Under the pieces are notes generated by a model. That model was given only the letters and a program-made list of their open reading frames with translations. It was not told the origin of the DNA and did not search any database. The position numbers were made by a program, and so were the translations under genes. A stretch of 64,000 nt of DNA from Actinokineospora inagensis DSM 44258 (GTDB lineage Bacteria; Actinomycetota; Actinomycetes; Mycobacteriales; Pseudonocardiaceae): contig NZ_AXWW01000014.1 in assembly GCF_000482865.1 (NCBI RefSeq), positions 62,001 to 126,000 on the forward strand, given 5' to 3'. Positions 1,838 to 16,332 of this stretch are shown piece after piece (position 1 is the stretch's first letter; each line of letters starts with the position of its first letter).

Positions 1838-2107
1838 ATGATGATCGACCGGAATGACGTCCTCGGCGTGGTCAACGAGTGCATGAACATGCAGTCGGAC
1901 GTGGCGTTGGACTACGACACGCCGATCATGGTGGATTCGTTCGCGCTGGTGTGGTTGCGACACCTGTTGGAGGAGCGGCACGGGTTGGTGGTGGAGCCGG
2001 GGCGCGACGACGTCCTGGACTTCACCTCGGCGCGGGCCATCCACGAGTACCTGGCCAGGACCCACCCCGAGCAGGTCGCCGCGGCGGCGGAGAGCGGGCA
2101 GCGATGA
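1838..2107 (+). CDS. Acyl carrier protein
   Basis: An 89-residue stand-alone carrier protein. The phosphopantetheine site is Ser34 in the context VDSFALVWL, the usual Asp-Ser start of helix 2. Upstream helix 1 (residues 3-17) and the closing helix (SARAIHEYLARTHP) fit the four-helix ACP fold. The ribosome site gaaagggga lies directly upstream of two consecutive ATGs at 1838 and 1841, and either could be used. It is the first gene of the operon and overlaps the next gene by 4 nt (ATGA). With the AMP ligase and ketosynthase downstream it probably carries the starter acid and the growing acyl chain. It could equally carry an amino acid, since it resembles both type II PKS and NRPS carriers. Confidence 0.85.
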   Translation: MMIDRNDVLGVVNECMNMQSDVALDYDTPIMVDSFALVWLRHLLEERHGLVVEPGRDDVLDFTSARAIHEYLARTHPEQVAAAAESGQR

Positions 2108-3528
2108 GCGGCGCCGATGTGGTGGTCGCCGGGAACGGCGTGCTGGGATTGTCCCTCGGGCTGGTGCTGGCCCGGCAGGGGCTGCGGGTGACCGTGCTCG
2201 GCGAGCCGCACCGGCCGGGGGCGGCGTCGGTGGCGGCGGGCGCGATGCTCGGCGCGATCGGCGAGGTCACCGATGTCCTGCTGGGCAGCGCGCACGGCCG
2301 GTCGAAGCTGGAACTGGGCATCCGCGCCCTGGGCACCTGGGACGACTGGCTGGCCGGGCTCGCCGAGGACGCGGGCACCGACAACGACGTCCTGTCCGCC
2401 GACGGCACGGTCGTGCTGCTCAACGGGGTTGGCGTGGCCGCGATCGACGACGCGAACTTCGCCGCGATCCGCCGGGCCGCCGCCGAGTACGCGCAGCCGT
2501 GCCACGACGTCGACGTCACCGAGATCGAGTGGATCAACCCGGACAACGCGGGCAGGCCGTTCCGCGCGGTGCACCTGCCCGACGAGCACGCGGTCGACGC
2601 GCACCGGCTGCTCACCCGCCTGGAGCAGGCTTTCGTGGCCAGGGGCGGTGTTCTCGCCGGTGAGCAGGCCGCGAGCCTTGAGTACTCGAACGGCGCGGTC
2701 ACCGGGGTCGTGCTGACCTCGGGCACCCGCATCGAGGCCGGTCAGGTCGTGCTCGCCGCGGGCACCCGCACCCAGGACGTCCTGGACACCGCGGGCGGCG
2801 CGGCGGGTCGGATTCCGCGGCTGGTGGCCGGTTTCGGCGTGTCCGCGCTGTTGGACACCGACGGTACTGACGGACCGCGGTCCGTATTGCGCACCCCGAA
2901 CCGGGCGTTCGCCTGCGGTCTGCACCTGGTGCCGCGTTCGGGCGGTCAGGTCTACGTCGGCGCCACGAACATCATCTCCCCCACCGTGGTGGAGAAACCG
3001 GTGGTCCGCGACCTGCACTTCCTGCTGGACTGCGCGACCCGCCAACTGCACCGCGACCTGTGGACGTCGGGCATCCGCGCCGCGCAGGTGGGCAACCGTC
3101 CGGTGTCGCTGGACGGGTTCCCGCTGATCGGCCCGACCGAGCTGGACGGCCTGTGGCTGCTCACCGGCACCTACCGCGACGGCCTGCACCTGTCCCCGTT
3201 GCTGGCCCAGGAGTTGGCGGCGCGGATCACCGGCGGCGAGACCGGGGTGGACCTGTCCGGCTTCCACCCGGTGCGGCAGGCGATCCAGCCGTACCCGCGG
3301 CACGAGGTGATCGCGACGGCGGTGGCCCACCTGCTGGCGACCGGCTACGAGTATGACTGGCACCTGCCGGTCGACTGGCCGCGCACGATCGAGCACAGCC
3401 TGCGCATCGAGTTCGCCCGGTTCGCCGACGAGATCCACCCGGTCAAGGTGCCGCCTGCGGAGATCCTGGCGGCGGCCCGGTACTCGCCGATCCTGGTGAA
3501 GATGCTGCGCGAGCTGTACGCCGACTGA
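2104..3528 (+). CDS. FAD-dependent oxidoreductase, DAO family
   Basis: A 474-residue flavoprotein of the D-amino-acid oxidase/glycine oxidase superfamily. The dinucleotide-binding motif VVAGNGVLGLSLG starts at residue 7 (glycines 10, 12 and 15), and an AAGAML segment near residue 44 is typical of ThiO-like oxidases. A second FAD contact, LAAGTRT, lies near residue 218. The protein is about 100 residues longer than glycine oxidase; the extra C-terminal part (after the GTYRDGLHLSP FAD-binding stretch) has no match that I recognise. It is coupled to the ACP gene by ATGA, so an amine on an ACP-bound intermediate or a free amino acid are both plausible substrates. The substrate is unknown. Confidence 0.8.
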   Translation: MSGADVVVAGNGVLGLSLGLVLARQGLRVTVLGEPHRPGAASVAAGAMLGAIGEVTDVLLGSAHGRSKLELGIRALGTWDDWLAGLAEDAGTDNDVLSADGTVVLLNGVGVAAIDDANFAAIRRAAAEYAQPCHDVDVTEIEWINPDNAGRPFRAVHLPDEHAVDAHRLLTRLEQAFVARGGVLAGEQAASLEYSNGAVTGVVLTSGTRIEAGQVVLAAGTRTQDVLDTAGGAAGRIPRLVAGFGVSALLDTDGTDGPRSVLRTPNRAFACGLHLVPRSGGQVYVGATNIISPTVVEKPVVRDLHFLLDCATRQLHRDLWTSGIRAAQVGNRPVSLDGFPLIGPTELDGLWLLTGTYRDGLHLSPLLAQELAARITGGETGVDLSGFHPVRQAIQPYPRHEVIATAVAHLLATGYEYDWHLPVDWPRTIEHSLRIEFARFADEIHPVKVPPAEILAAARYSPILVKMLRELYAD

Positions 3529-3543
3529 GGGAGGACCTGGGGC

Positions 3544-4758
3544 ATGCTCAGCCCGTACCGCCGCATCTTCGCGACGCCGGGGGCGGTGGCGTTCACCGCC
3601 GCCGGGTTCGTCGCCCGGCTGCCGATGGCGATGTTCAGCGTGAGCACCGTGATCATGGTGGCCACCCGGTACCACTCGTTCGCCCTGGCGGGCGCGGTGT
3701 CGGCGGCCGGTCTCGTCGCGGTGGCGGCGGGTTCGCCGTTCATCGGCAGGCTGGTGGACCGGTTGGGGCAGGCCAGGGTGGCGTTGCCCGCGACGTTGAT
3801 CTCGGCGGCGTCGTCGACGGTCACCATCATCTGCGCGCACAACACGGCCCCCGTGTGGACGATCTTCGTGACCTACGTGGTCTCCGCCGGGGTGCCGTTC
3901 GTGAGCGCGATGGCCCGCGCGCGGTGGGCGCACGTGCTCGCCGACGACCCGGACGGGCTGCACGTGGCGAACTCGTTCGAGCGCGTGGTGGACGAGGTGT
4001 GCCTGGTCGGCGGCCCGATCTTGGCGACCCTGCTGTCCACGCTGGTGTTCCCGGAGGCAGGCCTGCTGGCGGCGACGGTGCTGATGGTCGTGGGAACGGT
4101 GTTGTTCGCCGCCCAGAAGCGCACCGAGCCCCCGGTCGAGCGGCACGAGTCCGGCGCGAAGCCGAAGCCGCCGGTGCGGGTGCCGGGGGTCCAGGTGATC
4201 CTGGTGACGTTCCTGGCGATCGGGGTGATCCTCGGGTCGCTGGAGGTCGTGACCATCGGGTTCGCGGATTCGTTGGGGCACAAGAGTTCCGCCGGGTTCG
4301 CGCTCGCCCTGCTGGCCGCCGGTTCCGCGGTGTCCGGGGTCGTTTTCGGTCTGCTGCGGCCGAACCGGGGCGCCGCGGTCCGCTACCTCGCGGGGGTCGC
4401 GGTGCTGGGTCTGGCGATGGTGCCGCTGCTGCTGGTCGACAACCTGGTGCTGCTCGGCGCGTGGCTCGCGGTGACCGGGGTCGTAGTGTCGCCGACGATG
4501 GTGACCAGCATGACGCTGCTGCAGGAGGTCGTGCCCGCGAAGCAGATCAACGAGGGCGTCACACTGACCGAGTCCGCGCTGATCGTCGGCATCTCGATCG
4601 GCGCGGCGAGCGGTGGCTGGGTGGTGCAGCACGTGGGCGCGGCCGCCGGGTACCGGGTGCCGGTGGTCGCGGGCCTGGTCGCGTTCGCGGTGGCGCTGGT
4701 CGGTGCCCGGAAGTTGTTGTCCGCCCCGGCTTTGCAGAGCACGGGAGGTGCCCGGTGA
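3544..4758 (+). CDS. MFS transporter, probable product exporter
   Basis: A 404-residue integral membrane protein with about twelve hydrophobic segments in two halves, separated by a charged central loop (QKRTEPPVERHESGAKPK, about residues 197-214). The loop between helices 2 and 3 carries GRLVDRLGQARVA, the major-facilitator signature with Asp and Arg. It starts 15 nt after the oxidase gene (ggagg ribosome site) and overlaps the AMP ligase by 4 nt, so it belongs to the operon. In clusters of this kind such a protein usually exports the product and gives self-resistance. No dedicated resistance gene such as an acetyltransferase is visible nearby, which makes export the likeliest protection. 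Confidence 0.85.
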   Translation: MLSPYRRIFATPGAVAFTAAGFVARLPMAMFSVSTVIMVATRYHSFALAGAVSAAGLVAVAAGSPFIGRLVDRLGQARVALPATLISAASSTVTIICAHNTAPVWTIFVTYVVSAGVPFVSAMARARWAHVLADDPDGLHVANSFERVVDEVCLVGGPILATLLSTLVFPEAGLLAATVLMVVGTVLFAAQKRTEPPVERHESGAKPKPPVRVPGVQVILVTFLAIGVILGSLEVVTIGFADSLGHKSSAGFALALLAAGSAVSGVVFGLLRPNRGAAVRYLAGVAVLGLAMVPLLLVDNLVLLGAWLAVTGVVVSPTMVTSMTLLQEVVPAKQINEGVTLTESALIVGISIGAASGGWVVQHVGAAAGYRVPVVAGLVAFAVALVGARKLLSAPALQSTGGAR

Positions 4759-6101
4759 CCTGGATCGACGAACTGCTCGCGCGGGGCGCGGACGCCGACC
4801 CGTGGCTGGTCGCAGACCGCGCGGAGACCCGGGCTGATCTGCGCCGCAACGTCACTGCACAGCAAGAATCGTTGACAGGCATCGGAACGGGCTCGGTTGT
4901 CGCAGTGCGACTGCCACCCGGGCCTGCCGCGCTGCACACGTTGTTCGCGCTCTGGCGGCTCGACGCCCAGGTCGTGCTCGTCGACATCCGCCTCCCACAA
5001 CCGGAGGTCGACCGCCTCTACGGCCTGCACCCGCCCACCCACGAGATCACCGACACCGGTCTGGACCACCTCGGCACGGGAGCCGACCCGGGCGACATCC
5101 GCCTGGTGCAGTTCAGTTCCGGCTCGACCGGCCGCCCCAAGGTCATCGGCCGCACCGCGGCCGACCTGCGCACCGAGATCGAGCGGTACGCGGTGCTCGA
5201 CGGAATGCCGCGGCACGGCGAGCGGATCTTGCTGCTCAACTCGCTGATCCACACCATGGGCTTGGTCGGTGGTGTCCTGCACGGTCTGGCCAGCGGCACC
5301 GGGCTCATCCTGCCCATCGGGACGCGCGCGGCGGGTTGGGTCGAGCAGGCCGCCGAGCACCGGGTCGCCGCGATCCTCGGTGTGCCACTGCATTTCGAGC
5401 TGCTGTCCCGGACGTCCCCGCCGCCGCTGCCGGACCTCCGGCTGGCCGTGTCGGCCGGGGAAATGCTGCCGCCCGCGGTGAACTCGGCGTTCGAAGCCAG
5501 GTTCGGCGTGCCGGTCAACCCGGTCTACGGCACCACGGAAACCGGGATTCTCACCGCGGAGCTGACGAAACCGTGTCCGCCGCCGCGGGTTGGTCGTCCG
5601 GTGTCGAACACGACCGTCCGGGTGACCGACGGCGAGCTGTACGTCCGCCTGGACCGGTCGCCGTACCTGCGCGCGGACGGGGTCGACCGGTTCGACGACG
5701 GCTGGTTGCGCACCTTCGACCGCGCCGAACTCGACGACGACGGCACGACCATCAGCATCCTGGGCCGCGCCGACTCCGTGGTCACCGTGGCCGGCCTCAA
5801 GATCGACCTGATGGAGGTCGAGTCCGTCCTGCGCGCGCACCCGGGGGTGACCGAGGCCGTCGTCGTGCACAGCGGTTCGGCCGTCGAGGCGTACGTCGGC
5901 GCTCCGGAGGACGTCACCGCGGCGGAGTTGCTGCGGTGGTGCCGGGAGCGGCTCAGCGACTTCAAGGTGCCGAAGCGGTTCGCGGTCGACCGGGCGGTCC
6001 CGCGCAACCCCACCGGCAAGCTCATCCGCAGCCACGAGCTGCTGCACGCCCACCGCGGAAAGGGGGACCCGCATGCGAACGCTGCTGATCGACAATTATG
6101 A
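4755..6101 (+). CDS. AMP-dependent acyl/aryl-ACP ligase
   Basis: A 448-residue ANL-superfamily adenylating enzyme, short for the family. Visible motifs are the P-loop SSGSTGRPK (121-129), YGTTETG (258-264), the hinge region with the sugar-binding Asp in LRTFDRAEL, and the C-terminal catalytic Lys422 in NPTGKLIRS. All core residues are therefore present. It should activate a carboxylic acid as an acyl-adenylate and load it on the ACP at 1838. The next gene makes aminodeoxychorismate, so a para-amino aromatic acid is a reasonable substrate guess, but the specificity pocket cannot be read with confidence. The GTG start at 4755 follows ggaggtg and overlaps the transporter stop. It overlaps the following gene by 29 nt. 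Confidence 0.85.
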   Translation: MTWIDELLARGADADPWLVADRAETRADLRRNVTAQQESLTGIGTGSVVAVRLPPGPAALHTLFALWRLDAQVVLVDIRLPQPEVDRLYGLHPPTHEITDTGLDHLGTGADPGDIRLVQFSSGSTGRPKVIGRTAADLRTEIERYAVLDGMPRHGERILLLNSLIHTMGLVGGVLHGLASGTGLILPIGTRAAGWVEQAAEHRVAAILGVPLHFELLSRTSPPPLPDLRLAVSAGEMLPPAVNSAFEARFGVPVNPVYGTTETGILTAELTKPCPPPRVGRPVSNTTVRVTDGELYVRLDRSPYLRADGVDRFDDGWLRTFDRAELDDDGTTISILGRADSVVTVAGLKIDLMEVESVLRAHPGVTEAVVVHSGSAVEAYVGAPEDVTAAELLRWCRERLSDFKVPKRFAVDRAVPRNPTGKLIRSHELLHAHRGKGDPHANAADRQL

Positions 6102-8118
6102 CTCGTTCACCTACAACCTCGCGCACGACGTGGCCAGGGCAACCGGCCGTTGGCCGACCGTGGTCCGCAACGACGACCCGGACTGGCGCCCGGCCGAGCT
6201 GGACCGCTTCGACCACGTGATCGTCTCGCCCGGCCCGGGGACACCGGAGCGGGCCGCCGACTTCGGCATCTGCGCCGAGGTCATCGCCACCGCCGACCTG
6301 CCGCTGCTCGGGGTTTGCCTGGGGCACCAGGGAATCGCGCACGTCTTCGGCGCGAACGTGGTCCCGGCGCCGGTGCCGCGCCACGGTGAGGAGTCGGTGG
6401 TCCGACACGGCGGCGACGAGCTGTTCGCGCACGTGCCGGAGTCGTTCCGGGCCATCCGGTACCACTCGCTGGCGGTCACCGGCCTGCCCGCGGAACTGCT
6501 GCCGATCGCGTGGACCGACGACGGGGTGCTGATGGGGTTGCGGCACCGGGACCGCCCGTTCTGGGGCGTGCAGTTCCACCCGGAGTCCATCGGGACCCGC
6601 GACGGCCCGCAGATCATGCGCAACTTCCTGGGGGTCGCGCCGCGCCGGTCGCCGGTCTCGGTCAAGGGGCCGGACCGGCCGGACAGGGTCGTCGTCCGCA
6701 AGCTGAGTGTCCCGGTGACCGCGGAGCAGGTGTTCGAGCGCTGTTTCGCCGACTCCGAGCACGCGGTGTGGCTGGACAGCAGCTCCGCGGGTCTCGGCCC
6801 GGACCGGTTCTCGTTCCTGGTCGACGCCAGTGGGCCTGCCGCCCGGGTGGCCACCGCGGATGTCTCAACGGGAACGATCACGGTCAGCTCGGCCACCGGC
6901 ACCCAGACAGTCCACAGTGGATTCTTCGATTGGCTCGACCGGGATTTGGCCGCACGCAACACAACCGTGCCGCCGCTCCCGTTCGACTTCGCCCTCGGCT
7001 GGGTCGGCTACCTCGGTTACGAGCTGAAGGCCGAGACCGGCGGCGACGCCGCGCACACCTCCCCGCACCCCGACGCCGCCATGATCTTCGCCGACCGGGC
7101 CGTCGCCGTCGACCACGAGACCGGTGACATCCACCTGATGGCCCTCGCCGAGGCGGGCGACCCGACCGCGGCCAACACCTGGCTCGACCAGACCGAGCGA
7201 CGGCTCACCGAGCCCGTGACCCCCGCGCCGGACAGGTCCGAGCCGATCGGGCCACTCACACTGCGGCACGACCGTGGCCGCTACCTCGACCTCATCGACG
7301 ACTGCCTCCGCCAGATCACCGCCGGTGAGAGCTACGAGATCTGCCTGACCAACATGATCACCGCCGACGGCCGCCTCGACCCGTGGCCCGCGTACCGGGC
7401 GCTGCGCGAGCGGAACCCGGTTCCGTTCGGCGCTTTCCTCCGGTTCGGCGACCTGTCCGTGCTCAGTTGCTCACCCGAGCGGTTCCTCCGCGTCGGCCGC
7501 GACCGCCGGGTGGAGAGCAAGCCGATCAAGGGCACCCGGCCGCGCGGCCGCACCCAGGACGAGGACGAGCGGCTGCGGCTGGACCTGCGGCACAGCAAGA
7601 AGGACCGGGCGGAGAACCTGATGATCGTCGACCTGGTCCGCAACGACCTCGGCCGGTCCGCGGTGCCGGGCACGGTGACCGTCGACCCGATCTTCGCCGT
7701 GGAGACCTTCAGCACGGTGCACCAACTGGTCAGCACGGTCAGCGCGGAACTGCGCCCGGACGTGTCCGCCGTGCGGTGCGTGCGGGCGGCGTTCCCCGGC
7801 GGGTCGATGACCGGGGCACCCAAGGTCCGCACGATGCAGATCGTCGACCGGCTGGAGCAGGGGGCGCGTGGGGTGTACTCGGGGGCCATCGGCTACTTCT
7901 CGCTGACCGGCGCGGCGGACCTGAGCATCGTGATCCGCACCGTGGTGGCCACGCCGGACCGGGTGGAGTTCGGGGTGGGCGGTGCGATCATCGCCCTGTC
8001 CGATCCCGCGGTCGAGTTCGAGGAGACGGCGGTCAAGGCGGCCGTGCTGCTCGGGTTGACCGGTCAGGAGTTCCCCGAGCGGGACCCGGCCACCGAGCCC
8101 GCCCGGAGCGCCCGATGA
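6073..8118 (+). CDS. pabAB: Aminodeoxychorismate synthase, fused PabA-PabB
   Basis: A 681-residue fusion. Residues 1-195 are a class I glutamine amidotransferase with the catalytic Cys82 in GVCLGHQG and the FHPES histidine/glutamate pair. Residues about 215-670 are the chorismate-binding synthase. The PIKGT motif (Lys486) is typical of aminodeoxychorismate synthases; anthranilate synthases have PIAGT. The GGSMTGAPK and GAIGYFS motifs are also present. The product should be 4-amino-4-deoxychorismate, the precursor of p-aminobenzoate and of p-aminophenylalanine-type units. No PabC lyase or PapB/PapC-like gene lies in the operon, so the next step must use a housekeeping lyase or an unrecognised enzyme. 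Fused PabAB proteins are common in antibiotic clusters. Ribosome site aaaggggg. Confidence 0.93.
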   Translation: MRTLLIDNYDSFTYNLAHDVARATGRWPTVVRNDDPDWRPAELDRFDHVIVSPGPGTPERAADFGICAEVIATADLPLLGVCLGHQGIAHVFGANVVPAPVPRHGEESVVRHGGDELFAHVPESFRAIRYHSLAVTGLPAELLPIAWTDDGVLMGLRHRDRPFWGVQFHPESIGTRDGPQIMRNFLGVAPRRSPVSVKGPDRPDRVVVRKLSVPVTAEQVFERCFADSEHAVWLDSSSAGLGPDRFSFLVDASGPAARVATADVSTGTITVSSATGTQTVHSGFFDWLDRDLAARNTTVPPLPFDFALGWVGYLGYELKAETGGDAAHTSPHPDAAMIFADRAVAVDHETGDIHLMALAEAGDPTAANTWLDQTERRLTEPVTPAPDRSEPIGPLTLRHDRGRYLDLIDDCLRQITAGESYEICLTNMITADGRLDPWPAYRALRERNPVPFGAFLRFGDLSVLSCSPERFLRVGRDRRVESKPIKGTRPRGRTQDEDERLRLDLRHSKKDRAENLMIVDLVRNDLGRSAVPGTVTVDPIFAVETFSTVHQLVSTVSAELRPDVSAVRCVRAAFPGGSMTGAPKVRTMQIVDRLEQGARGVYSGAIGYFSLTGAADLSIVIRTVVATPDRVEFGVGGAIIALSDPAVEFEETAVKAAVLLGLTGQEFPERDPATEPARSAR

Positions 8119-8777
8119 GCTACGACCGCGGCCTCCGGCTGCTCGCCTTCAACCAGGCCCGCCGACCGGACACGTTCACCCTGCTCGGCGACACGTGGGA
8201 CCTGCTGCCCGGGGTCTTCTCCCCGGTCTACGACGCGTCGACCCGGTTCTTCACCACCCACCTGCCGTACCCGCCGGGCGGGACGATGCTGGAGATCGGC
8301 TGCGGCGCCGGGATCACCGCCGTCACCGCGGCCCGGGTGTGCGCGCGGGTCACCGCGACCGACATCAGCGCGGCCGCCGTCGACAACACGCGGCGCAACG
8401 CCGAGCGGCACGGGGTGGCCGACCGGCTCGACGCGCGGCTGGGCGACCTGTTCGACCCGGTCCCCGCCGACGTCCGCTTCGACCTCGTGTTCTGGAACTC
8501 GCCGTTCATCGAGTCCCCCGCGGACCACGCGCCCGGGTCCGACCTGGACCTGGCGATCTTCGACCCCGGGTACGCCGCGCACCGCCGGTTCCTCGACCAG
8601 GCCCGCCGGTACACCGCGCCTGCCGGTCGGGTGCTGCTCGGCTTCGGCTCGCTGGGCAACCGGGACCGCCTGGACGGGCTGGCCGCCGAGGCCGGGCTGA
8701 CCGCGACCGGGTTCGCCACCAGTCCCCCCGATCAGGACGTCACCTACCAGTTGCTCGAGCTGACCCCTCGTCCCTGA
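8115..8777 (+). CDS. SAM methyltransferase, N-type (Pur5-like?)
   Basis: A 220-residue class I methyltransferase. The SAM-binding motif LEIGCGAGITAVTA lies near residues 58-71 and an acidic ATDIS segment follows the next strand. The motif IV region reads FWNSPF, the (N/D)PP(F/Y)-like form found in enzymes that methylate amide, amino or ring nitrogens (PrmC, N6-adenine and related families). This suits an N-methylation. Its neighbours encode the SDR, aminotransferase, Nudix and phosphatase expected for a puromycin-like aminonucleoside, where Pur5 dimethylates adenine N6, so that role is a good but unproven guess. An O- or other N-methylation is possible. It overlaps the synthase gene by 4 nt. 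Confidence 0.8.
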   Translation: MSYDRGLRLLAFNQARRPDTFTLLGDTWDLLPGVFSPVYDASTRFFTTHLPYPPGGTMLEIGCGAGITAVTAARVCARVTATDISAAAVDNTRRNAERHGVADRLDARLGDLFDPVPADVRFDLVFWNSPFIESPADHAPGSDLDLAIFDPGYAAHRRFLDQARRYTAPAGRVLLGFGSLGNRDRLDGLAAEAGLTATGFATSPPDQDVTYQLLELTPRP

Positions 8778-8791
8778 GAAATGAGGCTTTG

Positions 8792-9784
8792 ATGCGACCT
8801 CCCACCGTGCTGGTCACCGGCGGCCTGGGTTACCTGGGCTCGGTGCTGGCTCCGCTGCTGGCCGAACACGGCGCCAGCGTCATCGTCGTCGACGACGAGT
8901 CGATCACCCGGGAGCGCCAGGAGCGGCCCGGCATCACCTACATCACCGGGGACATCCGCGAGCCACGGGACTGGGCGTCCCAGTTGACCGGGATCGACGC
9001 GGTCGTGCACCTGGCCGCGATCGTCGGCGACCCGGCCTGCGACCTGGCCGGGGACCTGGCCCGGGACACGAACTACCTGGGCACGATCCGGCTGGCGGAG
9101 GCCAGCAAGCGGGCCGGGGTCGGGCAGTTCGTGTTCGCCTCCACCTGCAGCACCTACGGCGCGGCCGGGGACGCCCCGGTCGGGGTGGACTCGCCGGTCG
9201 AGCCGCGCTCGCTGTACGCGGAGACGAAGGTCTTCGCCGAGCACTACCTGCTCAGTCACGCGGGTGACGGCCCACGCCCGTCGATCCTGCGGTTCGCAAC
9301 CCTGCACGGGTTGTCGCCGCGGATGCGGTTCGACCTCGCGGTGAACACGATGACCGCGCGGGCCGCTGCCGACGGCCGGTTCATGGTGCACGGCGGCGAC
9401 CAGTGGCGGCCGTTCTTACACGTACGGGCCGCGGCGGACGCGGTGCGCGCGGTGCTCGGAGCCCAAGTGCCGTCGCTGGTCTACAACTGCGGTTCCAACG
9501 CGGAGAACTACCGGATCGCGACCCTGGGCGAGCTGATCCACGCCGAGGTCCCCGAGGCGGAGGTGGACGTGGTGGAAGCGGCCAGGGACCCGCGCAACTA
9601 CCGGGTCGACTTCGACCCGATCGCGACCGACCTCGGTTTCGCGCCCCGGCTGCGGGTGGTCGACACGATCCGGGACATCGCCGCGGCGGTGCGGTCCGGC
9701 CGGTACGCCGACCACGCGACCGCCCGGTACAACAACTACCTGCTCATGGTCGAGCGGACCGCGCGCCAGCCGGTGGCCCGGTGA
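8792..9784 (+). CDS. NAD-dependent epimerase/dehydratase (SDR)
   Basis: A 330-residue extended short-chain dehydrogenase. The N-terminal TGGLGYLG (residues 9-16) is the extended-SDR nucleotide motif. A Ser/Thr-rich strand (FASTCSTYG) and the catalytic YAETK follow, so Ser/Thr, Tyr and Lys are all present. Family members act on nucleotide-activated sugars. Together with the downstream aminotransferase it would oxidise a ring carbon to a ketone for amination. In puromycin biosynthesis a comparable NAD-dependent enzyme (Pur10) is thought to oxidise the 3-prime position of ATP. Either an NDP-sugar or a nucleotide could be the substrate. The ATG at 8792 was chosen because the Rossmann strand starts right after it. 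Confidence 0.83.
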   Translation: MRPPTVLVTGGLGYLGSVLAPLLAEHGASVIVVDDESITRERQERPGITYITGDIREPRDWASQLTGIDAVVHLAAIVGDPACDLAGDLARDTNYLGTIRLAEASKRAGVGQFVFASTCSTYGAAGDAPVGVDSPVEPRSLYAETKVFAEHYLLSHAGDGPRPSILRFATLHGLSPRMRFDLAVNTMTARAAADGRFMVHGGDQWRPFLHVRAAADAVRAVLGAQVPSLVYNCGSNAENYRIATLGELIHAEVPEAEVDVVEAARDPRNYRVDFDPIATDLGFAPRLRVVDTIRDIAAAVRSGRYADHATARYNNYLLMVERTARQPVAR

Positions 9785-10947
9785 GGCCCGCGGTGCTGGG
9801 CGGCACCCCCGCGTTCGACGAACCGCTGCCGCTGATCCGGCCCGCCCTGCCCGATGACGCCGACCTGCCTGCCAGGATCGGCGCGGTCCTCGACTCCGGG
9901 ATGATCACCAACGCGGTCGAGGTGCGCCGGTTCGAGCAGGTGACCGCCGAGTACCTGGGCGTGCCGAACGTGGTCGCGGTCAGCAACTGCACCACCGGGC
10001 TCATGCTGCTGCTGCGCTGTCTGGACGTGGGCGGACCGGTGGTGGTGCCGAGCTTCACGTTCATCGCCAGCGGGCACGCGGTGCGGTGGAACGGGTTGCC
10101 GGTGGTCTTCGCCGACAGCGACCCGCGCACCGCCACCATCGACCCTGCTTCGGTGCCGGACGGCGGTTTCTCGGCGATCCTGGCGACCCACACCTACGGC
10201 TCGCCGTGCGCGGTGGACGAATTGTCGGCGCGGGCAGAGCAGGCGGGGGCGGTGCTGCTGTTCGACGCGGCCCACGGGTTCGGCGCCCGCTACCCGGACG
10301 GGTCGATGGTGGGGTCGAAGGGGCTCGCCGAGGTGTTCAGCCTGAGCCCGACCAAGACGCTGACCACCGGCGAGGGCGGCCTGGTCACCACCGGCGACGA
10401 CGAACTCGCCCGTCAGCTCCGGGTGGCCCGCGACTACGGCAACCCCGGCAACTACGACTCCGTGCTGCTCGGGCTCAACGGCCGGATGACCGAGATCGCC
10501 GCGCTGCTCGGGACCGCCGCGCTGCCGCGGTTCCCCGGGTGGCTGGAGCAGCGGCACCACCTCGTCGAGCGGTACGTGAAGTCGCTGGCGGGCGTGCCGG
10601 GGCTGTCCTTCCAGGAGATCCCGGCGGGCGCGGTCAGCTCGTACAAGGACTTCACCGTCCGGGTCGGCGCCGACTTCGGCCTGACCCGGGACGAACTGGC
10701 GGATTGTCTGCGCGCGGAACGGATCTCGACCCGGGCCTACTTCGACCCGCCGCTGCACCGGCAGACCGTGTACGCCGATGTGCCCGCCGGGCCCCTGCCG
10801 GGTACCGAGGAGCTGGCCCGGACCATGATCACCCTGCCGTTGTCCACCCGCCTGGCGGCCGCCGCGGTCGACCGGGTCTGCGACGCGATCACCCGCGTCC
10901 ACGAGCACGGCACCGAGATCGCCCAGACCCTGCGGAGGACCGAATGA
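9781..10947 (+). CDS. DegT/DnrJ/EryC1 aminotransferase
   Basis: A 388-residue PLP enzyme of the sugar aminotransferase family. The cofactor-binding lysine is Lys192 in SLSPTKTLTTGEGG, which matches the family pattern, and LFDAAHGFGA upstream supplies the aspartate that contacts the PLP nitrogen. It would transfer an amino group, normally from glutamate or glutamine, to a ketone made by the preceding SDR. It starts with GTG at 9781, overlapping the SDR stop by 4 nt. In the puromycin pathway the equivalent is Pur4; in deoxysugar pathways related enzymes act on NDP-keto sugars. Its coupling to the Nudix and phosphatase genes favours an amino nucleoside or free amino sugar as the end product of this half. 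Confidence 0.9.
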   Translation: MRPAVLGGTPAFDEPLPLIRPALPDDADLPARIGAVLDSGMITNAVEVRRFEQVTAEYLGVPNVVAVSNCTTGLMLLLRCLDVGGPVVVPSFTFIASGHAVRWNGLPVVFADSDPRTATIDPASVPDGGFSAILATHTYGSPCAVDELSARAEQAGAVLLFDAAHGFGARYPDGSMVGSKGLAEVFSLSPTKTLTTGEGGLVTTGDDELARQLRVARDYGNPGNYDSVLLGLNGRMTEIAALLGTAALPRFPGWLEQRHHLVERYVKSLAGVPGLSFQEIPAGAVSSYKDFTVRVGADFGLTRDELADCLRAERISTRAYFDPPLHRQTVYADVPAGPLPGTEELARTMITLPLSTRLAAAAVDRVCDAITRVHEHGTEIAQTLRRTE

Positions 10948-11405
10948 ACGACTACCTGCGGCAACTGCGTGCGGCGGTCGGCACCGCGCCGCTCATCCTG
11001 ACCGGCGCGAACGTCGTCGTCGTCGACGAGACCGGGCGGGTGCTGCTGATCGAGCGCGCCGACACGAACGACTGGGGCCTGCCCGGCGGGCTGATGGACC
11101 CGGGCGAGTCGCTGGAGGACTGCGCGCGGCGCGAGGTGTTCGAGGAGACCGGGGTCAAGGTCGACGAGCTGGAGCTGCTCGGCGTGTTCTCCGGTCCGGA
11201 GTTCTACTACAAGTGCCCCAACGGCGACGAGATCCACAACGTCACCGCGGGCTACATCGCCCGGGTGCCGGACGGGGTGGCGGTCAGCGCGGACCTCGAA
11301 GAGGCGTTCAGCGCCCGGTTCTTCGCGCTGGACGAGCTGCCCGCGGCGATCCTGCCGCCGGAGGTCCCGATCATCGAGCGGTACCGGGAGCAGGTCGGTG
11401 GGTGA
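10944..11405 (+). CDS. Nudix hydrolase
   Basis: A 153-residue protein with a complete Nudix box starting at Gly49: glycine, five residues, Glu, seven residues, then REVFEETGV, exactly the GX5EX7REUXEEXGU pattern needed for magnesium-dependent cleavage of nucleoside diphosphates linked to another group. Upstream VLLIERADTNDWGLPGG is typical of the family. Next to an IMPase-like phosphatase, its likely task is to strip pyrophosphate or NMP from the aminated intermediate, as proposed for Pur7 on the puromycin triphosphate. It could alternatively be a house-cleaning enzyme carried with the cluster. It overlaps the aminotransferase gene by 4 nt. Confidence 0.9.
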   Translation: MNDYLRQLRAAVGTAPLILTGANVVVVDETGRVLLIERADTNDWGLPGGLMDPGESLEDCARREVFEETGVKVDELELLGVFSGPEFYYKCPNGDEIHNVTAGYIARVPDGVAVSADLEEAFSARFFALDELPAAILPPEVPIIERYREQVGG

Positions 11406-12195
11406 TCTTCGCGGGTTCATCGGGCACGCGCTGCGGGAGGCCACCCGCGGTGTCGCGGACCTGCCGCGGGGTGTGGTCGGGACGCACCCCGGCGACCGCA
11501 ACCAGGTGGTCACCGCGGCTGATCTGCAGGTCGACGCCGCGCTGACCGGGCTGATCCGGGCCGAGTTCCCGGGTTCCGCGATCGTCAGCGAGGAAGCCGA
11601 GCCGGTCGAGGGCGACGGGCTGACCTGGATCGTCGACCCGATCGACGGGACCAGCAACTTCGCCGCGGGCAGCCCGCTGTACGGGTCGATGCTGGCAGCT
11701 GTGCGCGACGGCGTGGTGGTCGCGGGTGGGATCGTGCTGCCCGCGTTCGACGAGCTCTACACGGCCGCCGTCGGCGAAGGCGCCTTCCTCGGCGACGAGC
11801 GGCTGCGGTTGACGCCGGGTGAGTCCCTTGTGGACGAACTGGTCGCCTACGGTATCGATGTCGGCAGCCCGGAGAGCATCGCGCCGGATCTGGCCCTGTT
11901 CACCGGTTTGGCCGGTTCATGCCGGGGAATCCGTTCCAGCAACAGCGTTTTCGACGCCGTCATGGTGGCTCGCGGGGCCTACGGGGCATTGCTGCACCGG
12001 GGCATGCGCATCTGGGACATCGCGCCGATCGCCGTCCTGGTCACCGAGGCGGGCGGGGAGTGCACCAACTTGGACGGCACCCCGCTGCGGTTCGACTCCC
12101 CCACCAAGCGGCACAACGACGTCTACGCGGTGCGGTGCGCTCGACCGGGCCTGTCGGGGGCGCTTGACAGCATCGTTCGGGAGGCGCGGCGATGA
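11398..12195 (+). CDS. Inositol-monophosphatase-family phosphatase
   Basis: A 265-residue member of the lithium-sensitive phosphatase family. Metal-binding motif 1 is WIVDPIDGTSNF (Asp80 onward) with the upstream SEEAE glutamates near 64-68, and motif 2 is WDIAPIAVLVTEAGGE near residues 205-220, so the three-metal active site looks intact. It should remove the last phosphate from a sugar or nucleoside monophosphate. In puromycin biosynthesis the analogous Pur3 dephosphorylates the amino-nucleotide before amide formation, and this gene sits in the same logical order after the Nudix enzyme. The GTG start at 11398 gives an 8-nt overlap with the Nudix gene. Confidence 0.88.
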   Translation: MGDLRGFIGHALREATRGVADLPRGVVGTHPGDRNQVVTAADLQVDAALTGLIRAEFPGSAIVSEEAEPVEGDGLTWIVDPIDGTSNFAAGSPLYGSMLAAVRDGVVVAGGIVLPAFDELYTAAVGEGAFLGDERLRLTPGESLVDELVAYGIDVGSPESIAPDLALFTGLAGSCRGIRSSNSVFDAVMVARGAYGALLHRGMRIWDIAPIAVLVTEAGGECTNLDGTPLRFDSPTKRHNDVYAVRCARPGLSGALDSIVREARR

Positions 12196-12899
12196 GCGGA
12201 CGATCGGTCGTGGTGACCGGCGGCAACCGGGGACTCGGGTTGGCCTGCGCGCGGGTCTTCGCGGCGGCCGGGGACAAGGTCGCGGTGACCCACCGGGGCA
12301 GCGGCGCCCCGGACGGGTTGTTCGGCGTCGTCTGCGACCTGCGCGATTCGGGTCAGACCGGGGAGGCGTTCGCCGAGGTCAAGCGGCAGCACGGCCCGGT
12401 CGAGGTGCTGGTGGCCAACGCGGGGGTGGCCGACGACGGGCTGCTGCTGGGGATGGGCCGCGAGCAGTTCATGTCGGTCGTGGAGATCAACCTGGGCAAC
12501 GCGTACGAAGCGGTCCGGCGGGTGGCGCCGGACATGATCCGGGCCCGGGGCGGCCGGATCGTGCTGATGTCGTCGGTCGCGGCGTTCCGCGGGTTCGCCG
12601 GTCAGGCCAACTACGCGGCCAGCAAGGCCGGCCTGGTGGGGATGGCCCGGTCGCTGGCCAGGGAGTTCGCGCCGTGGGGCATCACGGTGAACGTGGTGGC
12701 ACCGGGGCTGGTCGACGCGGGCATGACCGACACGTTGCCCGCGGCGACCGTCGAGCGGATCGTCGCCGAGGTGCCGCTGGGCCGAACGGCAACCGCCGAA
12801 GAGGTGGCCGACGCCGTGCTGTGGGTCGCCTCCCCGCGCGCCGGATACGTGACCGGCGCGGTGATCCCGGTAGACGGCGGCCTCGGGATGGGGCACTAG
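12192..12899 (+). CDS. Beta-ketoacyl-ACP reductase (FabG-like SDR)
   Basis: A 235-residue classical SDR. The cofactor motif TGGNRGLG starts at residue 9, NAG follows near residue 76, and the catalytic Ser127/Ser128, Tyr141 and Lys145 (YAASK) are present. The C-terminus ends in PVDGGLGMGH, typical of FabG. It should reduce the beta-keto group made by the adjacent ketosynthase on the ACP. No clear dehydratase gene is present, so the reduced product may stay as a 3-hydroxyacyl chain. It overlaps the phosphatase gene by 4 nt, and its stop codon directly abuts the ketosynthase start. Confidence 0.88.
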   Translation: MSGRSVVVTGGNRGLGLACARVFAAAGDKVAVTHRGSGAPDGLFGVVCDLRDSGQTGEAFAEVKRQHGPVEVLVANAGVADDGLLLGMGREQFMSVVEINLGNAYEAVRRVAPDMIRARGGRIVLMSSVAAFRGFAGQANYAASKAGLVGMARSLAREFAPWGITVNVVAPGLVDAGMTDTLPAATVERIVAEVPLGRTATAEEVADAVLWVASPRAGYVTGAVIPVDGGLGMGH

Positions 12900-14063
12900 A
12901 TGACCAACGATGTCGTGATCACCGGCTACGGCGTGCTGACCGCGTTCGGTTTCGGCGCGGACGCGGTCCGCACCGGCGTGTTCGGCGGCGGCAACCGGTT
13001 TCACCCCGTCGAACGGTTCAACCCGGCGCGGTACCGCACCGACCGCGCCGCCGTGTTCTCCGGCGACGGCATACCCGGGATGAAGGTAAGTCCACAAGAG
13101 ACACCCGCACAGGCGCCAGTACTACGCGCCTGCGTGGTGGCCGCGTTGGAGATGGCGGGCCACAACGGCGCAGGAGCGCCACTGTTGCTCGGCAGCGCAG
13201 GCGATCGGCGCGCGGACCCGGGTTTCTGGCGAACACCGGGCGCCGAGCCACCCCTGGACAGCCTGCCCGGCCACCTGGCGCACCGGGTCGGCGCAGACCT
13301 GGGGCTGGACACCCCGCGACTGGCATTCGTCAACGCCTGCGTCGCATCAACCACGGCGATCATCACCGCCGCACAACTGATACGCGGCGGTCACACCCGG
13401 GCAGCGGTGTGCGCCGGGGTACACCTGGTCAGCGAGGACATCTTCGCCAAGTTCGACTCCGGCCAGGCAATGAGCACCGATGGCACCGTCCGCCCGTTCT
13501 CACTGGGCCGCACCGGCCTCCTCCACGGAGACGGCGCCGCCGCCCTGCTCCTCGAATCAGCCGCGTCCGCCGCCGACCGAGGCGCGACGGTGTTGGGACG
13601 CTTGACCGGCTGGGGAATGGCAGCCGACGCACACCACGTGGTCCAACCACACCCGGACGGCGCCGGACTCGCCACGGCGGCACGGGCCGCACTGCTGATG
13701 GCCGGGCGCGACCCCAACTCAGTCGGCTACGTGAACGCACACGGAACCGGCACCCCCCTCAACGACGCGGCAGAGACCCGAGGGTTACGGGAGGTGTTCG
13801 GCCCCGGAGTCCCGGTGAGTTCAACCAAGAGCACGACCGGACACCTGCTTGAGGCGACAGGAGCGGTCGAGGCCGTGATCACCTTGCTGGCACTGACCGA
13901 CGGAGCACTACCGCCGACGATGGGCTACCTGGCCCCAGACCCGAAGTGCGAAGTGGACTGCGTCCCGAACGCGGCCCGGCAGGCGGACATCGAGGTGGCG
14001 GTATCACTGAACGCCGCCTTCGGCGGAGCCAATGCCGCACTGGTACTGGAGCGCGCATCATGA
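12900..14063 (+). CDS. Beta-ketoacyl-ACP synthase (KAS II type)
   Basis: A 387-residue condensing enzyme of the FabF/type II PKS class, about 25 residues shorter than FabF. The complete catalytic triad is visible: Cys147 in FVNACVAST, His281 in NAHGTGTPLND and His315 in KSTTGHLLEATG. It should extend the ACP-bound acyl chain with malonyl-ACP. It starts at the base after the ketoreductase stop. The next gene encodes a KS-like N-terminal domain without the active cysteine, so the two may pair like a ketosynthase and chain-length factor. The number of extension cycles cannot be read from sequence. Confidence 0.9.
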   Translation: MTNDVVITGYGVLTAFGFGADAVRTGVFGGGNRFHPVERFNPARYRTDRAAVFSGDGIPGMKVSPQETPAQAPVLRACVVAALEMAGHNGAGAPLLLGSAGDRRADPGFWRTPGAEPPLDSLPGHLAHRVGADLGLDTPRLAFVNACVASTTAIITAAQLIRGGHTRAAVCAGVHLVSEDIFAKFDSGQAMSTDGTVRPFSLGRTGLLHGDGAAALLLESAASAADRGATVLGRLTGWGMAADAHHVVQPHPDGAGLATAARAALLMAGRDPNSVGYVNAHGTGTPLNDAAETRGLREVFGPGVPVSSTKSTTGHLLEATGAVEAVITLLALTDGALPPTMGYLAPDPKCEVDCVPNAARQADIEVAVSLNAAFGGANAALVLERAS

Positions 14064-15070
14064 CCGTCGGAGCAGCGCTGACCCCCTGGGGCGACGCGGC
14101 CGCGGGCCTGCCCGGTATGGCCCCGGTCGAGCTCGAACCGGTGCGCGGGTATGCCCGGTCCCGCTTCGGCCCGCTGGTGTTCGACATCGCCCGGCGCTGC
14201 CTGAGTGCCACTGTGGACGGTCCTCGGACGGGGATCGTGCTGGCGACCCTGTTCGGTGACACGGTCACCGCCGACGAGGCAACCAGGGGGTTGGCCAACG
14301 GTGGAACTCCCAACCCGGTGTTCTTCTTCCAGTCCGCCAACAGTTCCATCCTCGGCCACATCAGCCGCCGGTACGGGATCACCGGGCCGATGGTCTGCGT
14401 GTCCGGCATCGCGGATCTGGCGGTCGAAGCGCTGCGGTCGGCCCAACTGCTGCTGGACACCGACGCCGCCGACACGGTGTTGCTGATCGGCGCCGACCTG
14501 GCGCCCAACGCACGGGCTACCGCGATCGCCTCGACGCTGGGGCTTCCGGGCGTCCCCCACGGTGATGTCGCAGCGGGTTTGTTGCTACAGCGTGGATCCA
14601 GTGTGGTCGACGTGGCTCCTTTCGACACCGTCACCGGTCCGTTGGGCTGGCTCGAAGGTCTGGCCGCCGCCGTTGATGCCGTCGACGAAGAGCACGACGG
14701 CCTGCTCACCGACCGCCTGGGCATCAGGATCGTCGAGCGACGCCCGGACCGGGTCGTCGGCACCATGCCGGTCGCCGGGAACCGCCAGGACGCCGGATTC
14801 CTCGCGGGTGGCGCCACCGCCGCGTTCGCCGAGACCCTGGGGTCCGTCGCCGCCTGCCTGCTCGCCGACCAGATCCTCGGCCAGGAACTGTCCGTCACCC
14901 ATCACCGGGTCGCCACCGGCGGCCGGGTGACCGGTGTGTGCGTGCCGCTGTTCACCGGGATCGACGTCGCCACCTTCGAGATCGCCGTCCTGGACCGCCC
15001 CGGCCGCCGGATCGCCACCGCCCGCCTGACGTGCCGCCTGCGCCGCACCGACCGAAGGAGCACGAAGTGA
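14060..15070 (+). CDS. KS-like (CLF-type) / hotdog thioesterase fusion
   Basis: A 336-residue fusion of two halves. Residues 1 to about 185 resemble the N-terminal half of a ketosynthase or chain-length factor: GITGPMVCVSGIADLAVEAL aligns with the nucleophile elbow but lacks the catalytic Cys, and the C-terminal half with both histidines is absent. Residues about 206-328 look like a hotdog thioesterase of the PaaI/EntH type, with GGATAAFAETLGSVAA where the catalytic helix lies, though the usual His before the double glycine is replaced (FLAGG). It may act as a ketosynthase partner plus release or proofreading thioesterase. A dehydratase role for the hotdog is less likely but open. The gene overlaps both neighbours by 4 nt. 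Confidence 0.7.
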   Translation: MTVGAALTPWGDAAAGLPGMAPVELEPVRGYARSRFGPLVFDIARRCLSATVDGPRTGIVLATLFGDTVTADEATRGLANGGTPNPVFFFQSANSSILGHISRRYGITGPMVCVSGIADLAVEALRSAQLLLDTDAADTVLLIGADLAPNARATAIASTLGLPGVPHGDVAAGLLLQRGSSVVDVAPFDTVTGPLGWLEGLAAAVDAVDEEHDGLLTDRLGIRIVERRPDRVVGTMPVAGNRQDAGFLAGGATAAFAETLGSVAACLLADQILGQELSVTHHRVATGGRVTGVCVPLFTGIDVATFEIAVLDRPGRRIATARLTCRLRRTDRRSTK

Positions 15071-16332
15071 CCAGTGTGCCCATCCCGGTGTCCACGGGCG
15101 AGGACGTCGAGGCCCCGCTCACCTGGGGCCAACGCAAGATCCAACGTGAACTGGTCGCCTACCCCGACGACCTCTACCTGGCATTCCTCCCGGTGACCAT
15201 CCCCGCTCGCGACTCCACTGTAGACGGTGTGGTCTCCGCACTCTCGTTGGTCCTGACCGAATCCGAGTCCCTGCGCACGATCTACCCGAGCGCCGACGTA
15301 CAACGGGTACTCGGTTCGCCGGGCTATCTGCTGGAACTGATAGAAGGCGGGACCGCGGAATCCGTGCACGCCACCATGATGACGTCTCGTTTTCGCCCCA
15401 CCGACCTGCCCGTACGCCTGGCCTTGACCCTGCGTGACGGCGAACCCGACCTGATCGTGGCTGTTTTGACGCACATGTCCGTGGACGGTATCGCGTTGGA
15501 GTTCTTCACCTCTCGCGTCGCGGACGCCCTCGCCGGGGAGGTAGCCCCCTGGCAGGCATGGCAACCGCGTCAACTCGCCCAGGCCCAGCGAAGCCCCGAG
15601 GGCCTGGCCCGCAACGCCCGCACACTCTCCTGGTGGGAAGCGAAATACCGATCCGCCCCCGCCGCCGCCCTCCCCTCCCCGGTCGGCTCCCCCAGCGACC
15701 CCCGCTATATCGACGGCCGAATGACGTCTTTCGCCGCCGCCGCCGCACTGCAGGCACTCTCCCGGCGCACCCGGGTAAGCCCTTCCATGCTCGCCCTCGC
15801 AGGCTTGTGCGCTATTCTTGGTGAGCACTCCGGTCAAGACCGAATCGCGGTAAGTTCCCTGTCCGCCAACCGATCCAGCGCCCAGACACTGCGAATGATG
15901 GGCACCCTCTCCCAAGACGCCCTCATCGTCGTCGACACCGCACGCCCATTCGACGACCTCGCCACCCAAATCTGGGAATCAGCGACGTCTGCGTATACCC
16001 ACAGCACAGTGGACCCCGACGAACAGCAACTGGTTCGCGAGAAGGTCGACACTGAACGGGGTGCGCTATTTGCTCGGGATGTTGTCTACAATGATGTGAG
16101 CTCGCCGAGCATCTTTGGCCAGCCGGTCACGCCAATCGCGCCTGGCACGGGGACGACGACAGTTGCGGTGGAACCGAGCGAGTTCATGTTCGTCAGCGCG
16201 TATGCGACGGTGTATCGGATGGATAGTGTGTTTGAGGTGTCGTTGTGGGCCGATACGGCGTATCTGCCGGAGGCGGCTGTGGTTGCTTTACTTGGAGCTT
16301 GGGAGCGGGTGCTGGTCACCGCTTCGGGGTGA
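15067..16332 (+). CDS. Stand-alone condensation-domain acyltransferase
   Basis: A 421-residue protein of the NRPS condensation/acyltransferase superfamily, the right length for one free C domain. The active-site motif reads THMSVDG (His136, Asp140, Gly141): the second, catalytic His of HHxxxDG is kept and the first is Thr. Such free enzymes transfer an ACP-bound acyl group to an amine or alcohol acceptor. As the last gene of the operon it is the best candidate to join the ACP-bound acid to the amine made by the aminotransferase branch. The GTG start at 15067 follows a full aaggag site and overlaps the previous stop. Codon GC falls somewhat in the last 250 bp. Confidence 0.75.
   Translation: MTSVPIPVSTGEDVEAPLTWGQRKIQRELVAYPDDLYLAFLPVTIPARDSTVDGVVSALSLVLTESESLRTIYPSADVQRVLGSPGYLLELIEGGTAESVHATMMTSRFRPTDLPVRLALTLRDGEPDLIVAVLTHMSVDGIALEFFTSRVADALAGEVAPWQAWQPRQLAQAQRSPEGLARNARTLSWWEAKYRSAPAAALPSPVGSPSDPRYIDGRMTSFAAAAALQALSRRTRVSPSMLALAGLCAILGEHSGQDRIAVSSLSANRSSAQTLRMMGTLSQDALIVVDTARPFDDLATQIWESATSAYTHSTVDPDEQQLVREKVDTERGALFARDVVYNDVSSPSIFGQPVTPIAPGTGTTTVAVEPSEFMFVSAYATVYRMDSVFEVSLWADTAYLPEAAVVALLGAWERVLVTASG

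Follow-up and report, generated by a model that had tools for sequence, protein, structure and literature searches.

A 14-gene operon of Actinokineospora inagensis that may join an aminobenzoate-primed type II polyketide branch to an aminonucleoside cassette

In a 64,000-nucleotide stretch of the genome of Actinokineospora inagensis DSM 44258 (contig NZ_AXWW01000014.1, positions 62,001 to 126,000; hereafter the window), 14 genes, which we call g1 to g14, follow one another on the + strand between 1838 and 16332, neighbours being separated by −29 to +15 nucleotides. Judging from their families, order and relatives, we think it probable, with modest confidence, that this operon directs the biosynthesis of an acyl-aminonucleoside, in which the product of an aminobenzoate-primed type II polyketide synthase (PKS) would be joined to that of a cassette of the type known from puromycin and from 3'-amino-3'-deoxyguanosine (ADG).

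The gene content, order, conservation and modular arrangement of the operon are observed. An earlier reading of the letters alone (the sequence-only reading) had described a tightly coupled 14-gene operon at 1838–16332, and this is confirmed by matching open reading frame ends, by Pfam and NCBIfam support and by conservation in congeners; most members of its gene list stand as well, and the flavin adenine dinucleotide (FAD) amine oxidase (2104-3528) and the major facilitator superfamily (MFS) exporter (3544-4758) had gone unnamed. Two other Actinokineospora genomes have the block gene for gene, with its order unchanged and a protein identity of 80-96%, and the g13 fusion, used as a probe on the own genome and 15 others of the genus, is present in three of the 16. 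Outside the block, all that the compared flanks have in common with those of the congeners is about 340 bp 5' of g1 and one small upstream gene (521-1189), which in A. diospyrosa sits on the opposite side of the block. Because the 14 genes are conserved whole while the flanks share so little, we regard them as a unit. Its features are the following:

1497..1837, + strand: promoter-side conserved region with the inverted repeat CTAACC-TCT-GGTTAAG (1631-1646), 79-82% identical in two congeners and the only shared flank adjoining g1
1838..2107, + strand: g1, acyl carrier protein (ACP), with homologues bearing a DSF serine motif in related loci
2104..3528, + strand: g2, FAD amine/amino-acid oxidase (DAO, ThiO-like; PF01266 3e-39; 64% identical to the proteins of the G409 and G681 cores described below)
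3544..4758, + strand: g3, MFS exporter (PF07690 2e-23)
4755..6101, + strand: g4, adenosine monophosphate (AMP) ligase, probably a p-aminobenzoate:ACP ligase (PF00501/PF13193; groups with the G409/G681 ligases, 100/98)
6073..8118, + strand: g5, PabA-PabB (PabAB) aminodeoxychorismate synthase (PF00117+PF00425; TIGR00553 at 374.9 bits against a cut-off of 328.4)
8115..8777, + strand: g6, S-adenosylmethionine (SAM) methyltransferase (HemK-like; PF05175), with adenine N6 or an arylamine as candidate substrates from its family contexts
8792..9784, + strand: g7, epimerase-type short-chain dehydrogenase/reductase (SDR), proposed 3'-dehydrogenase of Pur10/AdgB type (PF01370; in a clade with cassette and ADG-like SDRs)
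9781..10947, + strand: g8, DegT aminotransferase, putatively Pur4/AdgC-type (PF01041 2e-86; 17-row clade 100/98, apart from DesI-type)
10944..11405, + strand: g9, Nudix hydrolase, putatively Pur7/AdgD-type (PF00293; 55-61% identical to 10 cassette Nudix proteins; Nudix box intact)
11398..12195, + strand: g10, inositol monophosphatase (IMPase)-like monophosphatase, putatively Pur3/AdgE-type (PF00459 8e-43; 45-51% identical to cassette phosphatases)
12192..12899, + strand: g11, FabG-type ketoreductase (KR; PF13561; FabG-type NCBIfam matches below their cut-offs; 61-64% identical to the G409/G681 KR)
12900..14063, + strand: g12, ketosynthase (KS) with Cys147/His281/His315 (PF00109/PF02801 and motifs; 54-59% identical to the G409/G681 KS)
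14060..15070, + strand: g13, fusion of a half-length part resembling a chain length factor (CLF; residues about 1-190) with an EntH-type hotdog thioesterase (about 205-330; PF03061/TIGR00369)
15067..16332, + strand: g14, free-standing condensation (C) domain (PF00668 at 39.7 bits against a cut-off of 30.6; xHxxxDG kept in the G409/G681 relatives)

A scripted motif scan found NAC145, HGTGT281 and TKS309 in the KS, the Nudix box, DPIDGT and WDIA in the IMPase-like protein, SPTKT in DegT, YxxxK in both SDR and KR, and THMSVDG in the C domain. Searches of solved structures returned generic relatives only.

Genes g7-g10 encode, side by side, an SDR, a DegT aminotransferase, a Nudix hydrolase and an IMPase-like phosphatase, the same types in the same order as adgB-E. 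According to the available text of PMC9239236, ADG is made in E. coli by the Photorhabdus genes adgB-E, whose respective homologues are pur10, pur4, pur7 and pur3. When named genomes were scanned with a DegT alignment and the best 80 of 87 loci were taken, 8 of the 79 that lie outside the window turned out to have the full four-gene cassette with its order kept (Saccharothrix, Streptomyces, Amycolatopsis); two further genomes bring this to 10 other actinomycete loci, identical to the window at 52-58% for the SDR, 54-59% for DegT, 55-61% for Nudix and 45-51% for the phosphatase. In this count, L212, L213, L214, L217, L218 and L221 are, judged by length, the same contigs as L123, L118, L120, L124, L122 and L125, and the 10 exclude L117 (a window-type block), L126 and L193-L195 (no IMPase match), L222 (no SDR or IMPase match) and L219 and L220 (no Nudix). 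The arrangement and its relatives support an aminonucleoside-type cassette in g7-g10.

An amino sugar of the nucleoside diphosphate (NDP)-hexose type in place of a 3'-amino nucleoside would fit the matches of the SDR and DegT proteins to NDP-sugar families, which fall far below the curated cut-offs (GalE, 82.5 against 262.3 bits; DesI, 282 against 650 bits). We consider this highly improbable. The DegT tree (59 rows, from 39 of the 80 loci and others, with matches below 250 residues dropped) unites g8 with enzymes of cassettes and near-cassettes in a 17-row clade (100/98), outside which fall two named sugar aminotransferases, one DesI-type and one from an enediyne cluster, the sole NDP-hexose comparators in the tree; Nudix and IMPase genes complete the adgB-E order, and no nucleotidylyltransferase or glycosyltransferase occurs among the 14 genes. 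Branching with NDP-hexose enzymes, the outcome that the sequence-only reading had named as telling against its proposal, is not seen for g8 with the two enzymes tested. Many rows of this tree are of unknown function, and their placement relative to the 17-row clade is not resolved. In the SDR tree (31 rows, matches below 200 residues dropped), g7 falls with the cassette SDRs in a group of 14 rows (99/96); a wider group of 19 rows (100/99), set on a long branch, adds the ADG-like and streptococcal SDRs and a single deltaproteobacterial row. The other rows are SDRs of unknown function with no named NDP-sugar SDR among them, so this tree is no test against NDP-sugar enzymes. We use "ADG-like" as a label for SDR-DegT-Nudix sets; the fourth gene of the Pantoea set is an EamA transporter.

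The acyl core of the operon consists of the ACP, the FAD amine oxidase, the AMP ligase, PabA-PabB, the KR, the KS, the half-CLF and the C domain. When the CLF-like half and the C domain were used as queries, two genomes of the genus Streptomyces came up, G409 and G681; of 392 genomes of that genus, these 2 alone have a C domain above 40% identity. Both have the order DAO-AMP ligase-PabAB-KR-KS-CLF-C in common with the window, with PabAB directly before the KR and an identity of 40-64% (DAO 64, AMP ligase 50-52, PabAB 60-63, KR 61-64, KS 54-59, CLF 41-47 and C domain 40-43%). They differ from it in lacking the methyltransferase and aminonucleoside cassette, and in a CLF that is not fused to a hotdog domain. 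No relative of g6-g10 was found in the G409 and G681 stretches at E ≤ 1e-3, the strongest match being a 78-residue IMPase match in G681 (E 0.012); in the window these five genes lie exactly between PabAB and KR. The simplest history suggested by the sequences is that a five-gene block was inserted into an older aminoaryl operon, and G409 and G681 offer a natural insert-free comparison for the logic of cluster hybridisation. In G409 an ACP gene precedes the DAO gene by about 3.7 kb, and a class IV aminotransferase resembling PabC is encoded as well; no ACP was found within the 15.5 kb stretch of G681. The homologues of the window ACP, g1, carry the conserved DSF serine motif; g1 itself has no Pfam or NCBIfam match. 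Extra luciferase-like and glycosyltransferase genes lie in the vicinity of both cores, as do allantoicase-like and PabC-like genes in G409, where the core (L081, L116) is flanked by two allantoicase-like genes and the luciferase-like monooxygenase, with the glycosyltransferase and PabC-like genes near.

In gene content this core is a putative aminobenzoate-primed type II PKS, since it brings together an AMP ligase, an ACP, a KS and a CLF with a dedicated route to an aminobenzoate, and sequence relationships make p-aminobenzoate (PABA) its likely starter. The p-amino-aryl acid of the sequence-only reading is probably right: PabAB is present in the operon and in its two nearest relatives, and an aminobenzoate pathway, either PabAB or one for 3-amino-4-hydroxybenzoate (3,4-AHBA), lies beside 10 of the 14 AMP-ligase relatives of at least 37% identity (H70-H74, G409, G681, L079, L083 and L084 have one; L058, L247, L248 and L249 do not). 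H70-H74, the five best plasmid matches of the ligase search (37-47% identity), all have such a pathway: PabAB with a class IV aminotransferase in one, and in four a pair of 2-amino-3,7-dideoxy-hept-6-ulosonate synthase and dehydroquinate synthase II, which we take to be 3,4-AHBA synthesis of the GriI/GriH type. The other nine are genome loci reached by the KS, CLF and C-domain searches, five of them with aminobenzoate genes (PabAB in G409, G681, L083 and L084; 3,4-AHBA type in L079); L083 and L084 also have a gene for an AurF-type p-aminobenzoate N-oxygenase. L247, L248 and L249, reached from the CLF-like matches G004, G073 and G085, combine a KS, a CLF-like half and an AMP ligase 39-40% identical to g4. 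L237 and L246 are near-identical copies among the 14; relatives below 37% (L082, L234, L044, L048 and others) were left outside, and L080 has KS, CLF and KR with no AMP-ligase match.

That the starter is not an aminobenzoate, with PabAB serving some other purpose, seems to us improbable. The idea draws on L058, L247, L248 and L249, where the ligase relative has KS and CLF-like neighbours and no PabAB or 3,4-AHBA genes lie within 57-60 kb; with 4 of 14 relatives in this position, the ligase family is not confined to aminobenzoates. In the window block, G409 and G681 alike, PabAB nevertheless keeps its place beside the ligase, and in an 18-row tree the three ligases form one clade (100/98), all of whose examined members have PabAB. 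Another group holds the four 3,4-AHBA rows (91/97), and the L247, L248 and L249 rows fall beside the PabAB rows L083, L084 and L236 (100/100).

The joining of the two branches would fall to g14, the only amide-forming candidate recognised among the 14 genes. It scores as a condensation domain of nonribosomal peptide synthetases, and of the two His residues of HHxxxDG its motif THMSVDG retains the second. C domains and genes of this kind meet repeatedly: C-domain proteins are also encoded close to the complete cassette (L121, L123) and close to partial sets (L126, L222, L219, L220). We think it unlikely, if less so than a different starter, that the operon makes two separate small products, with the C domain acylating a common cell amine and the cassette yielding a free aminonucleoside like ADG. 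The C domain, DAO, AMP ligase, PabAB, KR, KS and CLF do co-occur without the cassette, and adgB-E alone make a free aminonucleoside. Against two products, the cassette is embedded in the acyl operon, its genes close or overlapping, with PabAB on one side and KR on the other, and is kept so in both congeners, and its meetings with C-domain proteins include complete (L121, L123) and partial (L126, L222) sets.

We infer every substrate in the pathway that would follow from an acyl-aminonucleoside product. PabAB (g5) would make aminodeoxychorismate, from which a class IV lyase of the host would release PABA, and g4 would load PABA onto the ACP g1. The KS g12 with the half-CLF of g13 would add one or a few malonyl units and g11 would reduce the ketone; dehydration, if any, would be due to the hotdog part or to the fatty acid synthase of the host, and the hotdog part may alternatively proofread. 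After a single extension the product would be a C6-C3 p-aminophenylpropanoid acyl-ACP, an amino analogue of the A201A acid, which also has the C6-C3 form. As suggested by order and homology, g7 would oxidise the 3'-hydroxyl of a purine nucleoside triphosphate, g9 would trim it to the monophosphate, g8 would aminate C3' and g10 would remove the last phosphate. The C domain g14 would then form the amide between the acyl-ACP and the 3'-amine of the aminonucleoside, g6 would N-methylate and g3 would export.

More tentatively, and with the odds somewhat against it, we propose a new scaffold: a 3'-amino-3'-deoxypurine nucleoside carrying a C6-C3 p-aminophenylpropanoid made by a type II PKS with PABA as its primer, its amide made by the free C domain, arising from a five-gene block dropped between PabAB and KR of an older operon. 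As part of the same proposal, the free C domain would be an ACP-based answer to the Pur6 step of puromycin. If true, the antibiotics puromycin and A201A would gain a new relative, of an aminonucleoside class with an acyl part derived from p-aminobenzoate via a minimal type II PKS, and a tractable condensation enzyme (a free C domain with an ACP substrate) would become available for acylating aminonucleosides; the matching acylation step of puromycin is called enigmatic in the accessible part of PMC11641026. Among the matches listed by a literature search, with subscription papers mostly outside it, we found no paper on this cluster or on a PABA-derived aminonucleoside.

Several observations, besides the four ligase relatives apart from aminobenzoate genes, weigh against an acyl-aminonucleoside. 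The proposed pathway leaves the DAO g2 unexplained. In g14 the first His of HHxxxDG is a Thr. Moreover, as a member of the acyl core, the C domain also occurs in G409 and G681, where no aminonucleoside genes were found at E ≤ 1e-3, so that in them it presumably acts on a different acceptor. No aminodeoxychorismate lyase is found among the 14 genes, four class IV aminotransferases being encoded elsewhere in the genome, and no dedicated dehydratase is found among the 14 either, from which we infer a chain of one or a few malonyl extensions. In the DegT tree the ADG-like enzymes do not group with g8, the fork between them not being resolved. Lastly, cassette loci and ADG-like plasmid genes served as stand-ins for the Pur and Ata (A201A) proteins: no locus recognisable as pur or A201A occurred among the loci fetched, and the DegT scans (382 and 317 genomes, E ≤ 1e-95) could miss a more distant pur4.

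Relatives of g2 were met in other settings. One, 52-53% identical, lies on a Streptomyces finlayi plasmid with a g6-like methyltransferase and RidA as neighbours (L224), and another (42%) near an anthranilate-synthase-family gene on an Agrobacterium plasmid (L225). The substrate of the DAO may be an amine derived from chorismate.

The methyltransferase g6 (METHYLTRANSFERASE) belongs to the inserted block, and its role as a Pur5 equivalent is unproven from sequence. The sequence-only reading had matched five activities of the operon to those of puromycin; the cassette g7-g10 bears this out in its aminonucleoside type, and the methyltransferase gives it no support, no homologue of it being found at 1e-6 in about 20 kb around each of the 10 other cassette loci. 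We give nearly an even chance to the possibility that g6 is not Pur5-like and that its target is an amine of the PABA-derived acyl part, the p-amino group or another, with the nucleobase left unmethylated and the rest of the pathway as proposed. Besides the missing homologues, this would agree with the contexts of g6 relatives, which adjoin PabAB in L046 and L047, lie within 4 kb of it in L044 and stand beside the DAO relative on the S. finlayi plasmid; others are found near distant DegT genes (25-32% identity). It agrees less well with the position of g6, which is missing from the acyl cores of G409 and G681 and lies in the five-gene block directly before g7; in addition, 12 methyltransferase regions of 20 kb (12 of 16 non-own genomes) include 10 without clear PabAB (that of L051 matches at only 31% over 193 residues), and a DAO match in none. 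Both a base and an arylamine are candidate targets. The N-type motif that the sequence-only reading saw, NSPF, is not conserved across the g6 family, and we dropped it as proof of N-methylation.

The fusion protein g13 was described in the sequence-only reading as a KS-like/hotdog fusion. The fusion and its hotdog part stand; the KS-like part is of about half the KS length, matches the N-terminal half of KS models only and has Ala in the column of KS Cys147. In relatives, CLF and hotdog are separate genes, which explains the fusion: a hotdog thioesterase gene directly follows the CLF gene in L235, and lies about 0.8 kb downstream of it in L234 and about 4 kb away in L079, with identities to g13 of 42-52% for the CLF-like half and 54-58% for the hotdog. 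The predicted structure of g13 (mean predicted local distance difference test, pLDDT, 35.6) was not used. The hotdog part may act in proofreading, release or dehydration. In asukamycin biosynthesis the type II thioesterase AsuC15 edits starter units, and the enzymes covered in the available text of that source are placed in the alpha/beta-hydrolase family, not the hotdog fold (PMC4147253).

A KS with a half-length partner also calls to mind the KS-CYF of cispentacin and coronafacate type, which would make a cyclopentenone from 2-oxoglutarate. The cispentacin Amc system, as far as PMC10698177 describes it, shares with the window an ACP, an acyl-AMP ligase, a KS and a shortened CLF-like partner, AmcG, likened by description, and the NCBIfam AmcF model matches g12 at 210 bits, below its curated cut-off of 325. 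The match is unspecific, three other KSs of the same genome scoring as high, and we dropped the AmcF/cispentacin link for this reason. With PabAB as the context of the ligase and no class III aminotransferase among the 14 genes, we rate such a cyclopentenone the least probable of the alternatives considered.

Set beside known systems, the cassette has the four enzyme types of the Photorhabdus ADG operon adgA-E and of pur10-pur4-pur7-pur3, in adgB-E order, a likeness by description; the SDRs of the ADG-like plasmid sets (Pantoea, Klebsiella) stand in one deep clade with g7, and the identity to these sets is 34-42%. In contrast to ADG and puromycin, the window cassette belongs to an aminoaryl polyketide operon that also encodes a methyltransferase and a C domain. 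The operon is not of puromycin type: puromycin uses Pur6, an 84 kDa protein without known domains (PMC11641026, accessible part), and no Pur6-like gene, that is, no large protein without known domains, occurs among the 14. A201A likewise unites an aminonucleoside with an acid from a chorismate-derived benzoate, a likeness by description and not by sequence. Its nucleoside genes are described as pur homologues in the same part of PMC11641026, and its precursor, 4-hydroxybenzoic acid, is made from chorismate by MtdV according to the available text of PMC8706298; the window route to the starter runs through PabAB, and that of A201A through a chorismate lyase.

The manumycin lower chain is the product of a type II PKS, and lower chains of the manumycin/asukamycin type offer a further comparison. 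AMP ligases 45-47% identical to g4, with KS, CLF, ACP and hotdog relatives, occur in the 3,4-AHBA-type loci L079 and L235, the latter of which we take to be manumycin-like. Manumycins start from 3,4-AHBA and their lower chains have 4-8 carbons on the aminobenzoate, as given in the accessible part of PMC8000086. The window differs in its PABA pathway, its fused CLF-hotdog, its lack of a dedicated dehydratase and its free C domain, and, with no 3,4-AHBA synthesis genes among the 14, falls outside the manumycin lower-chain type.

Other cassettes came to light in varied surroundings. HypF-, HypE- and isochorismatase-like genes adjoin the cassette in 7 of the 10 other loci (L118, L119, L120, L122, L124, L215, L216), and in L118 a gene resembling the large subunit of carbamoyl phosphate synthetase (CPSase) comes next, whose relative in L119 is full-length and those in L122 and L124 partial; the HypF/HypE-bearing cassettes perhaps belong to a carbamoyl- or cyano-modified aminonucleoside family. 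Proteins of about 780 residues beside the cassette, suspected from their size to be Pur6, proved by hmmscan to be HypF/HypE, and this candidate was rejected. Streptococci (S. parasanguinis, S. australis and a Streptococcus sp.; L193, L194, L195) have DegT-Nudix with an SDR match directly before it (partial in L193), an aminonucleoside-like set 28-42% identical to g7-g9. SDR-DegT-Nudix sets also occur on plasmids of Klebsiella variicola and Pantoea agglomerans (L223, L043), near transposase or plasmid-maintenance genes.

The inverted repeat upstream of g1 (1631-1646) is a possible operator; a DNA search of the window for it returned the self-match only and is uninformative on function. In the operon copy of G006 (L023, 11589-12257 and 14121-14720), the start of the KR and the stretch after the KS are partly tandem-duplicated.

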